From contig MHJG01000002.1 in assembly GCA_001818695.1 (NCBI GenBank), positions 14,431-68,144 of the forward strand: DNA of 53,714 nucleotides, read 5' to 3'. A program made the translations under genes and the position numbers. This DNA is from Candidatus Harrisonbacteria bacterium RIFCSPHIGHO2_02_FULL_42_16 (GTDB lineage: Bacteria; Patescibacteriota; Minisyncoccia; UBA6257; 02-FULL-45-10c). The notes under the pieces are model-generated. The model made no database searches, was not told where the DNA came from, and was given only the letters and a program-made list of their open reading frames with translations. Positions within the stretch are counted from its first letter, which is position 1. Every line of letters begins with the position of its first letter. Of the stretch, positions 20,781 through 53,621 are shown piece by piece.

Positions 20781-21077
20781 ATGTACTCAAAGCAAATGAA
20801 AATCGTGTACCGTGTGATTGGTCTCATTGCGATAGCGATAACAATAGGAATGCTTACGCCCATGCCCGCATTCAGATTCTTTTCAATTGATATAAAAGCC
20901 CATGACGCCAAACCCGATCCTTGCCAGCAATATCAAGAAAACGCCTTAAAATACATTCAAATGACAGAAGAATATCGAAAAAAAGAGTGGTGGCCAGGAG
21001 AGGCGGCTTCTGTGGCAGCAGCTTATAGCAGCTATTATCTCGTCTGTCGCGACCTTGAAAAACGGCAAAACCGCTAA
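20781..21077 (+). CDS. Small single-TM hypothetical protein ending CRDLEKRQNR
   Basis: SD aggaggg, N-terminal TM segment; C-terminal 10 aa identical to the ORF at 21793. Confidence 0.6.
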   Translation: MYSKQMKIVYRVIGLIAIAITIGMLTPMPAFRFFSIDIKAHDAKPDPCQQYQENALKYIQMTEEYRKKEWWPGEAASVAAAYSSYYLVCRDLEKRQNR

Positions 21078-21792: not shown

Positions 21793-22128
21793 ATGAAAAT
21801 GAAAAAAAGATCTCGCCGCAAAGAGAATGACCATCTGGCAGACCAGCAATTGGAATGTCAATCCAAAAGAACTATATGGGTTCCTATTGCTATCCTGATA
21901 ATTATTGTCTCCATAGGAATAACCGGTTTATCCCTATTAGAAAAATCAGATAATAGAAAAATCGCGGAAAGAAAAAAGGTATTCATGGCCCGTATTCAAT
22001 CCGGAGATTGTAAACAATTATATAAGGAATCTCTGGAAGATGCAGCTAATATGCTTTGGCAGTCTTCAGCCGCTAAGGGCGTTCTTTACCAAAACTGCCG
22101 CGACCTTGAAAAACGGCAAAACCGCTAA
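21793..22128 (+). CDS. Small single-TM hypothetical protein ending CRDLEKRQNR
   Basis: 111-aa ORF; TM segment WVPIAILIIIVSIGITGLSLL; upstream TTGACA-N17-TATATT. Confidence 0.6.
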   Translation: MKMKKRSRRKENDHLADQQLECQSKRTIWVPIAILIIIVSIGITGLSLLEKSDNRKIAERKKVFMARIQSGDCKQLYKESLEDAANMLWQSSAAKGVLYQNCRDLEKRQNR

Positions 22129-24091: not shown

Positions 24092-24829
24092 ATGACTAAC
24101 TTAGCGCTGTGGCTGGTAACGGTGAGCGCGTATTTCGAGGTATGGTACTGGTTAAATGTTCCGGTTGGATTACAAAAATCCGTCTGGCGAATTAGTTTGC
24201 TAATGCTTCTCTGCGCCCCTTTTAACATTAATGATAATGTGTTCACGATACTTGGAAATGCCGTGAGCCAAAAGAACAGTTACGCTCTTTTCCCTTTATA
24301 TCAAAAAGCGGAACAGAAAGCAGATGCTCCATTTGCTCTGTACCAATCAGCTGGACAGAAAGCAGATGCTATATTTGCTCTGTACCAATCAGCTGGACAG
24401 AAAGCAGATGCTATATTTGCTCTGTACCAATCAGCTGGACAGGGAGCAAGTGCTGCATTTACTCTGTACCAATCAGCTGGACAGATAGCAGTGGCTGGAT
24501 TTGCTCTGTACCAATCAGCTGGACAGGGAGCAAATACTATATTTGCTCTGTACCAATCAGCTGGACAGAAAGCAGATGCTACATTTACTCTGTACCAATC
24601 AACTGAAAAGGACGCATTTGCTATATTTACTCTGTACCAATCAGCTGGACAGGGAGCAGATGCTATATTTGCTCTGTACCAATCAGCTGGACAGAAAGCA
24701 GATGCTATATTTGCTCTGTACCAATCAGCTGGACAGGGAGCAGATGCTTTATTTGCTCTGTACCAATCAGCTGGAAAAAAATCGGGCTCTCGGAGTTTTT
24801 TCAGAAATAAATCAAAACTAAAAGATTAA
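24092..24829 (+). CDS. Repeat protein: N-terminal TM region plus twelve 14-aa repeats (FALYQSAGQKADAI)
   Basis: SD aaaggagga; 42-bp repeats 24290-24793 in frame; followed by a terminator. Confidence 0.7.
   Translation: MTNLALWLVTVSAYFEVWYWLNVPVGLQKSVWRISLLMLLCAPFNINDNVFTILGNAVSQKNSYALFPLYQKAEQKADAPFALYQSAGQKADAIFALYQSAGQKADAIFALYQSAGQGASAAFTLYQSAGQIAVAGFALYQSAGQGANTIFALYQSAGQKADATFTLYQSTEKDAFAIFTLYQSAGQGADAIFALYQSAGQKADAIFALYQSAGQGADALFALYQSAGKKSGSRSFFRNKSKLKD
24290..24793 (+). repeat. 12 x 42-bp tandem repeat array (coding)
   Basis: Unit tttgctctgtaccaatcagctggacagaaagcagatgctata. Confidence 0.93.
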
Positions 24830-39941: not shown

Positions 39942-40460
39942 TTAACAGCAATTTTTCATTTTTTTCTCAATTTCCGCGACCTTTTTATTCTCTTTTTTAT
40001 CTCCGAAATGCGCGCCGTCCGGCGCTAAAAAATATATTGCCAGCAAAGCCAAAAAAACCGCTAAAATAGAAAATCCAATCCACCGATGGAAAATCAAACT
40101 ATAAACCGCCGCAAAACCGAACGGAATAAAAATTGTCTTCCAAAGAAGCGGCGAACGGCCTGCAGGCAAGCGCTTTTCCAGCTGATAAGCAATGCCAACT
40201 ACCGAACCGCCCATTAAAATTCCGGTAAGCAATTGGTAATTAGTAATTGATAATTGTCCGGAAAATATACCGGCAAGCATCCAAAGCCAAGTTCCGCTGA
40301 CACCGGCGCAAATCGGACAAATCCAAACAGGAGAAACCTTATTAAGAACCCAAACCGTTCCGGTTATCAAAAATATTGACGAAAGAACAATAAAAATAAC
40401 CATAAAATTAAAAGAGTAAAATAATACTTCCCAAAACGACCATGGCGATTCCGCCGCCAA
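39942..40460 (-). CDS. Membrane protein with WICPICAGVSGTW motif
   Basis: 172 aa; 4-5 TM segments; C-terminal KNCC. Confidence 0.6.
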   Translation of the reverse strand: MAAESPWSFWEVLFYSFNFMVIFIVLSSIFLITGTVWVLNKVSPVWICPICAGVSGTWLWMLAGIFSGQLSITNYQLLTGILMGGSVVGIAYQLEKRLPAGRSPLLWKTIFIPFGFAAVYSLIFHRWIGFSILAVFLALLAIYFLAPDGAHFGDKKENKKVAEIEKKMKNCC

Positions 40461-41199
40461 AACGCATCAACCGCCACTCCTTCTGCTGCCACGCCTGAAC
40501 TTGAGTAAGCAGAATTTTATCGCTCGCGATAAGCAAAATAACAACCAATGGCAGAACAAAAATCAGATTGTACAGGAAAAGATAACCAAGTCCCGTAAAA
40601 TAAGTTGATTGGTCGTGAAGCAATCCCAACACCATCAAATACGGGCCACCGGTGCAGGGAAACTCACAAAGCCCGACTAATATCCCCAAAAGAAAAGCGG
40701 CCGGAATTGAACCCTTATCCATCAGTTCCGCCATTTTATGGTGCGCCGCCGAAGGAATGCGGAGCTTAATCGGAAAATTCGGGAAAAATTCATTTATAAG
40801 ATTTATCACTCCCAGCGCGATAAGCAGAAACGCCCCGACCTTCGCCATAAAATGCGGCGTGTTAAAAAGATGGAGCGCCTGCAAAATTCCCAAACCAATC
40901 AGGATATACACCAAAAAAATTCCCAAAATATAAACTCCCCCAATTTCCAAAATTCTTGAACGCAACTTTCCAACGCTAAAAAGAAACGCGATAGTCAGCA
41001 ATAAGATGGAAAACGCGCAAGGATTTATGCTGTCAATCAACGCCGCAACGCCCACCAGCGGCAAAAGCCACTTTCCGCCGTTGCTCACGCTCCAAAGCCA
41101 GCCGGAAACAGCCGGATTGGAACGGAAAATAATCGCTAAACCAACCAAAGCGATTCCAACTAAAATCAAGATTAAAATTTTTCTAAATTTTATTTCCAT
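40408..41199 (-). CDS. CcdA/DsbD-like transmembrane thiol-disulfide transporter
   Basis: ALIDSINPCAFSILLLTIAFL ... LVGLCEFPCTGGPYLMVLGLL. Confidence 0.85.
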   Translation of the reverse strand: MEIKFRKILILILVGIALVGLAIIFRSNPAVSGWLWSVSNGGKWLLPLVGVAALIDSINPCAFSILLLTIAFLFSVGKLRSRILEIGGVYILGIFLVYILIGLGILQALHLFNTPHFMAKVGAFLLIALGVINLINEFFPNFPIKLRIPSAAHHKMAELMDKGSIPAAFLLGILVGLCEFPCTGGPYLMVLGLLHDQSTYFTGLGYLFLYNLIFVLPLVVILLIASDKILLTQVQAWQQKEWRLMRFGGGIAMVVLGSIILLF

Positions 41200-41205
41200 A
41201 TTGAG

Positions 41206-41715
41206 TTAAGGAGTTACCGTAGCGGCAAATCGAAGCTCTAAAAGAGTTCCTAATTTGCTTTCCGCATAGATGCTCCTTTCAATTTTTCCAATGCCGGCCG
41301 GGCCATGCGCCGCCGGGTCAAAAATCGCTTCAATATCCGCTTCTTCACCCGGCTGGAAAAGAACGTTAATTTTCGGAACCGCGCCGTGCCCAGGCATGCC
41401 AAACGACCCCAAATTCCTTCCACTCTTTAATAAATTAGCAATCGTGCACATGCAGGAGGTATAAATTTTGGCAAGCGTAACCGTTTCCGCATTGGAATTT
41501 TTAATTTTAAACGCATGGCTGACTTTACCGGCCGCCATGGAAATTTCTCCGAAATCAAAGAATTGCTCGTTAGACGCCAGAAAATTCTCCTCCATCGGTT
41601 CTTGGGCGCCGGCGCCGGAAGAATTGGAACGGGCAAATAAAACAATTCCAATAAAAATTAAAACGGTAATTATGATTATACTAATGCTAATTTTAAGGTC
41701 TGAATTTTGTTTCAT
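41206..41715 (-). CDS. DUF1573 protein
   Basis: FDFGEISMAAGKVSHAFKIKNSNAETVTLAKIYTSCMCTIA. Confidence 0.85.
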   Translation of the reverse strand: MKQNSDLKISISIIIITVLIFIGIVLFARSNSSGAGAQEPMEENFLASNEQFFDFGEISMAAGKVSHAFKIKNSNAETVTLAKIYTSCMCTIANLLKSGRNLGSFGMPGHGAVPKINVLFQPGEEADIEAIFDPAAHGPAGIGKIERSIYAESKLGTLLELRFAATVTP

Positions 41716-41817
41716 ATTTTTAAATTAAATTTAAACTAAAATAAAAACTCCCCGAGATAAGAGGGTTCGGGCGCGAATTTAAACCGCCATCAGACGGCAA
41801 GGCCTAAATCCGCGCTT

Positions 41818-42234
41818 TTAAGCGAAAGACGGGCTATTTTCGTGAAAAACCAGCCAGGATAAAAATTTTCTGCGATAAAATAAATTAGGCGGATTAAAAA
41901 GCGCAAACCGGTTTGCGGATAATAAAAGGCGCGGCGGCTCAAAAATAAAACCGAAAGCCAAAGCAATGCCGGCAAAGGCCGCTAAAATTGAACTAACTAT
42001 CGTAGCCAGCGAAAAATTCCTGTAAGCGTCAAGGTGAAAAGAAATAACGGAAAGCAGGCCTCCTTCCGGACAATCCATCCCCTGAACGGCGGCGGCCAGG
42101 CAATTATGACCGGCTTCATGGCCCATTGCCAAAAAACCGAATACCGAGATGCTCGCAAACGACAATATAATAAAAAACGCGAATTTGCTTTTCATATTCT
42201 TATAAGCATAACATAATACAAAATGAAAAAACAA
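41818..42234 (-). CDS. Hypothetical membrane protein
   Basis: 138-aa ORF (start possibly MKSKFAFFIILSF). Confidence 0.5.
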   Translation of the reverse strand: MFFHFVLCYAYKNMKSKFAFFIILSFASISVFGFLAMGHEAGHNCLAAAVQGMDCPEGGLLSVISFHLDAYRNFSLATIVSSILAAFAGIALAFGFIFEPPRLLLSANRFALFNPPNLFYRRKFLSWLVFHENSPSFA

Positions 42235-51003: not shown

Positions 51004-51116
51004 AGCTTTAGCGACGGAGGATTAATTTTAAACAAAGTTTACTGTTTAGCAGTATACAAAATCATATTGCCCCGGTCAATAGCTCCGCAAAAAAAACGGC
51101 GCCGATGCCGTTTTTA

Positions 51117-51755
51117 TTATTTAGAGTAGCCCAAAAGCTTGCGAGCCGGCGGATACATTAAAGCATTAAGCTCTTCACTTCCTTGCCACAATTTAATTTC
51201 ATTACACTCTCCATCAATCCTCAAACTGCCTAATGTCCATTGAAATGGCTTATGGTCTTTCCAGCAATGCACTGCCCGCTTCCATATATCGCCCGAACCT
51301 TTCGTATCTTTAGGAGTTGCTCCTATTAAAAGGTATCTGCTGAATCTGGATTCCATTGCCGCTTCTGCCGCCAACGCGTAACAGCAATCATTAACAAAAA
51401 TAAGATTTCCGTCGTGGCCGGCAAATATAAGCCGCAATTTTTCATAATCTACTATATTCTTTTCATCGTCAGGATTATTTTCATAACCGGTAACCGACCA
51501 TCCGCTTTTATCTCCATGGCCGAGATAAAATAAACAACTATCTTCTCGCGGCTTGTTTAAAAATATTTCACCTAATAAAGCGGTAATCAGCTCATTATTT
51601 CCGGATGGCAATCTGATAATATCTTCCTTTTCCCTAAAACTAAGTTCTTTAACAAGTTTATCAATGAGATTATTAGCACCTTGATTAAAACGTTCTGATA
51701 TTCCATTATCAAAATCATTGTTATTTGGCTGACCAACCACCACGATAATCTGCAT
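51117..51755 (-). CDS. Caspase-like (C14-type) fold protein
   Basis: SCLFYLGHGDKSGW (candidate catalytic His) and NLIFVNDCCYALAAEAA (candidate catalytic Cys) with plausible spacing. Confidence 0.7.
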   Translation of the reverse strand: MQIIVVVGQPNNNDFDNGISERFNQGANNLIDKLVKELSFREKEDIIRLPSGNNELITALLGEIFLNKPREDSCLFYLGHGDKSGWSVTGYENNPDDEKNIVDYEKLRLIFAGHDGNLIFVNDCCYALAAEAAMESRFSRYLLIGATPKDTKGSGDIWKRAVHCWKDHKPFQWTLGSLRIDGECNEIKLWQGSEELNALMYPPARKLLGYSK

Positions 51756-51854
51756 TGCCGGACTCCTTTTTTATGAGTTACTAAATTATATGGTATCCCA
51801 AAATTAATTTTGAGTCAAATTTAATTTGATGGATTCCGCAATTTTCTAAAAGTC

Positions 51855-52614: not shown

Positions 52615-52723
52615 AATTATAAATTTATTTTACCGCTTTTTAATTTTTAAGCCAAATTTTCACTTGATTATCTTAAAATTTAGATATATTATTTATATGG
52701 CCTGAAGTGGCCTTTTTAATTAA

Positions 52724-53621
52724 AATGGGAAATTTTTCTAAAATTTATAAAACTATTAAGCCATCTATCGTGGCTATTGCCTCAAAGATATCAAAAAATC
52801 CAGAATTCCCGGATATTATTGGCACTGGCTTTATAGTAAAATCTGAAGGGATAATTTTTACTAATAGTCATGTAATTAAAGTAATTGAAAAATTACCCCG
52901 GCTTAAAAATATGGGACCCGAAGATTGGCCGGCAATGATTTTATATTTCCACTGGATTCCCGATAGGGGGATGATGGCGATCCCTCTTGAAATAAAAGGA
53001 ATTGGGAGTTTAGAAAGAATAAAACCAGTAGAAGGTTATCATTATGGAGAAGATATTCCAGACTTAGGTTTTATACAGGTACATATAAAAAATTTACCAG
53101 CGCTTAAGATTTCTGAAAGGCTAGAATTGGAAGAGGGTGATGAAATAATGCTAGCTGGTTTTCCAATGGGTACAAGTACATTAAGAGCGCCGGGGTGGTT
53201 ACACCAAATAACTCCAACACTGCAATCAGGAATTATTAGTTCAATACTACCCTTTCCCTGCGACGATCCACATGCAATTCTTCTTGATGTAATGACACAG
53301 GGTGGCTCAAGTGGTTCCCCGGTTTTTAATCCATCTACGGGCGAAGTAATAGGCATAGAGTATGGAGGAATTACGGAACCGAAAATCCTTAAAACTAATT
53401 CGGGTACGATGATTTATGAAAATAATACTTCTTTAACTCTCGCAATCCCAGCAAAAATATTGTATGAAATATATAAAAAAATAGAGGAAGTAGAAGAATT
53501 TAATAATATTGATATTTCTAAATTTGATACCATTGAAAACTTAATCAATAAGAAAAAGGTGATAATTCAGCAACCAAGAACGCCGTCGATGCAACCCATA
53601 AAATCAAACGAGATATTATAG
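52724..53621 (+). CDS. Trypsin-like serine protease (S1/HtrA-like)
   Basis: SIVAIASKI; GTGFIVKSEGIIFTNSHVI (His); DLGFIQVHI (Asp); MTQGGSSGSPVFNPSTGEVIGIEYGG (Ser); likely start MGNFSKIY. Confidence 0.85.

Follow-up and report, generated by a model that had tools for sequence, protein, structure and literature searches.

The gene and its surroundings

The window analyzed here is a stretch of 53,714 nucleotides, positions 14,431-68,144 of contig C2 (MHJG01000002.1) in the 754-kb genome (G000; 90.75% complete) of Candidatus Harrisonbacteria bacterium RIFCSPHIGHO2_02_FULL_42_16. On its minus strand, the open reading frame at 51117-51755 starts with ATG and encodes a protein of 212 amino acids, hereinafter the window protein. 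Given the Shine-Dalgarno-like sequence upstream and the hairpin that follows the stop codon, the gene looks like a single-gene unit. The features of the locus are the following (residue numbers are those of the window protein; slots and homologues are described below):

51762..51769, minus strand: Shine-Dalgarno-like AAAGGAGT, recognized in the sequence
51117..51755, minus strand: predicted caspase-like (clan CD) cysteine peptidase, slot-A paralogue (open reading frame, family alignment, AlphaFold, Foldseek, hhalign to C14, tree)
51513..51518, minus strand: codons of the putative catalytic His80 and of Gly81 (invariant in 17/17; hhalign places His80 on the C14 His; located where predicted strand 73-78 ends)
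51387..51389, minus strand: codon of Asp123, candidate S1-pocket residue in the place of TbMCA2 Asp211 (alignment; role of Asp211 from PMC4357240, PMC6426788)
51381..51383, minus strand: codon of the putative catalytic Cys125 (invariant in 17/17; hhalign places it on the C14 Cys; located shortly after predicted strand 118-123)
51147..51191, minus strand: C-terminal family signature, LRxGxxLDYLxYP in relatives and LWQGSEELNALMYPP in the window protein (alignment)
51092..51115, minus strand: palindromic terminator-like hairpin just past the stop codon, detected by a scan of the plus strand

The reading frame at 51117-51755 is a real gene, and pairwise pN/pS values within the family (0.33-0.58, with pS near saturation) are consistent with purifying selection.

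Several other features of the window deserve mention. The plus-strand gene at 52707-53621, ~1 kb away from that of the caspase-like protein, encodes a trypsin-like peptidase (Pfam Trypsin_2, E 1.5e-18) that gives weak PADLOC candidate matches (PDC-M35A, PDC-S45) and is not conserved with the caspase-like family; a conserved caspase-trypsin conflict pair was considered and rejected, the relatives showing weak matches only. A 42-bp repeat in 11 tandem copies (24313-24775) lies within the open reading frame 24092-24829 and gives rise to a repetitive ALYQSAGQKADAIF-type protein. Two small plus-strand reading frames (20781-21077 and 21793-22128) that have the tail CRDLEKRQNR in common apparently arose by recent duplication and encode a small protein that looks membrane-anchored.

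A divergent caspase fold

The earlier note on this DNA had likened the segments LFYLGHGD and FVNDCCYA to the His and Cys regions of caspases, and both are present in that order, containing His80 and Cys125, respectively. Across all six frames of the window, a single instance of the corresponding His-then-Cys pattern was found, and none when the residues of the 274 open reading frames of at least 60 aa were shuffled 2000 times; the result is descriptive because the pattern was composed after the hit was known. In an alignment of 17 homologues, with identity to the window protein down to 20%, the invariant columns are Met1, His80, Gly81, Cys125 and Gly192 only. The caspase-type assignment of the two motifs is borne out by this invariance and by the profile alignment that places them on the C14 His and Cys.

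Taken alone, the window protein matched nothing in Pfam, NCBIfam, PADLOC or, with phmmer, PDB. The search with the Peptidase_C14 HMM that the earlier note had proposed as a check accordingly returned no match, and the relatives, scored one by one, fall just under the cut-off of PF00656 (maximum 20.4 bits against 21.4). Single members nevertheless yield weak Pfam hits to C14 (10/17), C25 (7/17), Raptor_N (4/17) and C13 (4/17), all of which are caspase-fold families. When the family was compared by hhalign with the p20 domains of canonical C14 proteins from other Patescibacteria, a match of 97.3% (E 2.5e-11) was obtained with His80 and Cys125 aligned, against at most 0.7% for nine unrelated neighbour families used as controls. 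The family profile also matched metacaspase-4 (E 9.6e-4), GPI transamidase, metacaspase-1, CHAT and legumain in PDB.

The AlphaFold model of the window protein (pLDDT 88.8, pTM 0.88) has as its top Foldseek matches caspase-11, caspase-4, C11, legumain, Raptor and metacaspase-9, with probability 1.00 to caspases, C11 and legumain. With TM-scores of only ~0.5, these matches point to a distant relation. Among the BFVD models, the structural matches are caspase-domain proteins of giant viruses. A second model, of the L014 homologue, was built without an alignment (pLDDT 51.5) and was left out of the fold evidence. The absence of a caspase-hemoglobinase fold, which the earlier note had named as the refuting outcome, did not arise.

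On the strength of the invariant residues, the C14 profile-profile match, the weak Pfam hits of the relatives and the AlphaFold and Foldseek results, it is a well-supported prediction that the window protein is a divergent clan CD (caspase-fold) cysteine peptidase with the catalytic dyad, and one that consists of the p20 domain only: neither Pfam nor the AlphaFold model revealed a further domain in the 212 residues, and there is no p10. That the two motifs resemble those of caspases by chance and mark no such fold would be compatible with the failure of the single sequence in Pfam, PADLOC, NCBIfam and PDB; this reading is contradicted by the profile, the predicted structure and the invariance of the residues, and is barely credible.

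Paralogues and distribution

The description of the protein as stand-alone in the earlier note holds with regard to domains and fails with regard to the genome, which encodes two paralogues, P2 (contig C25, locus L002) and P3 (contig C20, locus L003). P2 (L002:1184-1863, minus strand) sits in its ancestral slot, flanked by the deaminase gene and thyX; in the assembly it is frameshifted after approximately residue 130, the C-terminal part running on in another frame, which reflects either a pseudogene or an assembly error.

Within the same GTDB family, 10 of the 17 genomes encode members of the protein family. In a sample of 244 genomes of the order they are confined to that GTDB family, apart from a protein in genome G098 (L029:1330-3240, contig C37), in which a C14 domain and a DEAD-box helicase are fused in one open frame of ~1038 aa. 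The class sample (384 genomes) added two distant full-length relatives (family f33), the remaining hits being canonical C14 proteins, and the phylum sample (380 genomes) gave weak hits only; the three samples overlap. One of the distant relatives (L059:6522-10699, genome G509) adjoins homologues of the gene cluster at 39942-42234 of the window, ~9 kb from the window caspase-like gene. Public records of relatives include MAGs of 'Candidatus Harrisonbacteria' and 'Candidatus Paceibacter sp.'. No relatives were found in viral contigs, phages or plasmids, leaving a phage or plasmid origin unsupported. The family is not described in the literature on caspases in Patescibacteria/CPR that was searched, most subscription journals lying outside the search. 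Within the caspase fold, the family constitutes a new, divergent branch of p20-only proteins in Patescibacteria.

Canonical C14 proteins were detected in 9 of the 384 genomes of the class, and none was found in G000 by a genome-wide C14 search. Six of the canonical proteins (L064-L068 and L049; families f57, f65, f74, f113 and f120) have a signal-peptide-like N-terminus and a common RPIHATNIKIAKK-like segment before the p20 domain, and on these sequence traits apparently form an exported caspase-like family.

Genomic slots around groES-groEL

In relatives, the family is found in a conserved region with the order (gene identities from Pfam) rmuC - nucleotidyltransferase-like gene - small gene - CIRCE - groES - groEL - cytidine/dCMP deaminase - thyX or thyA/DHFR - LemA - M48 protease. 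Its members occupy three slots: A, beside rmuC; B, before groES/groEL; and C, after groEL or the deaminase gene, often as tandem pairs. In the phylogenetic tree, the window protein clusters with the slot-A members (100/99) and P3 with those of slot B (96/93); the grouping of P2 with slot C is weak (81/84). Three old paralogues are recognized in a family that is confined mainly to one family of Patescibacteria. Given the grouping in the tree, the window protein is the slot-A (rmuC-side) paralogue, relocated; by the same comparison P3 is relocated too and P2 is still in its slot. In three genomes (G001, G010 and G011) the region is present without any family member, which indicates that clean gain or loss of the gene is possible. 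The conservation of neighbours, another check suggested in the earlier note, is accordingly evident as fixed slots beside groES-groEL in the relatives and does not extend to the window copy, which is no longer near groEL. The home of the family suggests a core cellular role, one that was absent from the earlier note.

CIRCE-like elements (TTAGCACTC-N9-GAGTGCTAA, 1-4 mismatches) lie just 5' of groES at L039, L040, L042-L045, L056, L073-L075, L077 and L079, implying HrcA-type heat-shock control in the reduced genomes of this Patescibacteria family. A heat-shock operon with groESL, although CIRCE is found in most relatives, is not proposed: terminator-like hairpins intervene between groEL and the caspase-like genes (L043 and L039), and co-transcription is not claimed. 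No conserved partner gene was found beside the family, and no conserved single-TM partner either.

Candidate active site and specificity

Clan CD peptidases have a caspase-hemoglobinase fold of the alpha/beta/alpha type. In these enzymes, the His-Gly and Cys of the dyad are located at the C-terminal ends of neighbouring strands of the sheet (PMC4357240). The AlphaFold model fits this description, with His80-Gly81 after strand 73-78 and Cys125 after strand 118-123. The proposed mechanism is activation of Cys125 by His80, each at the end of a strand of the central sheet. The adjacent position 124, also Cys in the window protein, varies among the homologues (P, S, T, G), which makes Cys125 the nucleophile candidate.

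Asp123 occupies the place of Asp211 of TbMCA2, which lies in the proposed S1 pocket for basic P1 residues (PMC4357240, PMC6426788). By analogy with orthocaspases and metacaspases, Asp123 could contribute to a partly acidic S1 pocket that would accept Lys or Arg at P1. Of the 17 members, 13 have D and 2 have E at this position, and two close relatives of the window protein have Ala or Tyr. The second acidic S1 position, Asp95 of TbMCA2, corresponds in an approximate placement to Gly26 of the window protein and is Asp mainly in slot-C members, so the P1/S1 specificity may differ between paralogues. Because of Gly26 and of the Ala and Tyr substitutions in the close relatives, the basic P1 preference of the window paralogue is uncertain.

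These differences in S1 residues among close relatives would also suit a catalytically silent scaffold or binding protein with a caspase fold, comparable to Raptor, which is among the structural and profile matches, or to the pseudo-variants known among bacterial caspase homologues (PMC6426788). A scaffold would have no need of the His and the Cys, which are among only five invariant positions, and this alternative is considered improbable.

Proposed function and alternatives

The most plausible overall interpretation, to which a probability of about one half is assigned, is that the window protein is a cytosolic endopeptidase of clan CD with a p20 domain only that makes limited cuts in protein substrates and acts under stress or in quality control. 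The model and the alignment predict a single-domain enzyme in which strand 1 starts at residue 2, with no signal-peptide-like stretch; opening directly with this strand, the protein should stay in the cytoplasm. The proteolytic activity, the basic P1 preference and the cytosolic location are inferred, and the role in stress or proteostasis is speculative. The most economical such role would be limited proteolysis of the cell's own proteins. As an analogy only, a plant metacaspase is reported to clear protein aggregates (PMC10473220). The conserved neighbourhood suggests a connection with stress or proteostasis. The link is weak, given the hairpins after groEL and the fact that conserved gene order in reduced genomes may simply be inherited; the location of the window copy away from groEL and the three genomes that keep the region without the gene likewise leave a stress role only suggested.

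A more specific proposal is that this Patescibacteria-specific family, with up to three paralogues in genomes below 1 Mb, is a functional part of a chaperonin/protease stress locus (groE, LemA, M48), making regulated cuts in client proteins or arresting growth. It is put forward tentatively, as rather unlikely; if true, organisms stripped of most regulation would have a caspase-fold stress protease.

An effector of regulated death or anti-phage defence is a possible but doubtful alternative, regulated death and defence having been among the roles suggested in the earlier note. In this reading, the protease would stay latent until the cell is damaged or infected by a phage and would then halt growth by cutting an antitoxin or proteins of the cell. 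Among known proteins, MaOC1 cleaves an antitoxin (PMC7935541) and caspase-like peptidases occur in predicted conflict systems (PMC7159879); in the present family, relatives are weakly similar to EACC1-associated caspases (L006, E 4e-7), and the gene is patchy within the GTDB family. Nevertheless, the three paralogues match no PADLOC families at E values up to 10, no EACC1 or other conserved partner gene and no toxin-antitoxin pair were seen alongside, and the conserved slots by housekeeping genes are unlike a defence island. Each of the three copies in G000 lies within ~6 kb of one of the five DNA methyltransferase genes found in this genome with two Pfam models, for which uniform placement gives a chance of ~5e-4, a value that was calculated after the proximity had been spotted, ignores contig ends and concerns an arrangement not conserved in relatives. 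The methyltransferase genes in question are located at C2:70084-70650, C25:8934-9617 and C20:19142-19966.

Patescibacteria are thought to be mostly episymbionts. This life style, along with the signal-peptide-like N-termini (judged by eye) seen in several of the canonical C14 proteins from other families of Patescibacteria, would fit a protease exported to act on a host or partner cell. The window protein and its aligned relatives, in contrast, open directly on the first strand of the fold, and the home of the family adjoins housekeeping genes. The host-interaction role contemplated in the earlier note is therefore disfavoured, and export is regarded as very unlikely.

A link has been drawn between caspase homologues in bacteria and complex life styles, and cyanobacteria with small, streamlined genomes are reported to lack such homologues (PMC3501461). 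By contrast, a 0.75-Mb genome keeps three copies, one of them frameshifted, of a divergent branch that is missed by standard profile libraries and whose slots are conserved on the chromosomes of relatives. Pfam-based surveys accordingly under-count caspase-like proteins in Patescibacteria. At ~200 aa, the cytosolic endopeptidase proposed here would, if active, represent a caspase-fold protease of minimal size and offer a means of studying the basal functions of such enzymes separately from death pathways.

Comparison with known systems

Among the closest known proteins are the orthocaspases and metacaspase-like proteins (MEROPS C14, p20-only; e.g., MaOC1 of Microcystis), with which the family shares the predicted caspase fold, the His-Gly and Asp-x-Cys motifs, and the lack of p10 and of added domains. 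Unlike these, it falls under the C14 Pfam cut-off and has a C-terminal signature of its own, the window paralogue does not have the second S1 Asp, and the activity is predicted.

Several relatives match the EACC1-associated caspases (NF047832) better than any other NCBIfam model, with scores of at most 29.7 bits (L006) against a cut-off of 140 bits; the window protein has no match. The family also differs in having neither a membrane EACC1 partner gene nor a variable C-terminal effector domain. The C25 gingipains, C13 legumain/GPI transamidase, C11, CHAT and the N-terminal domain of Raptor resemble the family in fold, in weak profile hits and in the His-Gly/Cys dyad (Raptor not as a protease), but none of their cut-offs is reached, and size and architecture differ.

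Canonical C14 proteins from the other families of Patescibacteria (L061-L068) score above the C14 cut-off and are encoded by longer open frames (319-425 aa), and several have the signal-peptide-like N-termini mentioned above; with the window family they share the p20 core, over which the 97.3% profile-profile match extends with both catalytic residues aligned.
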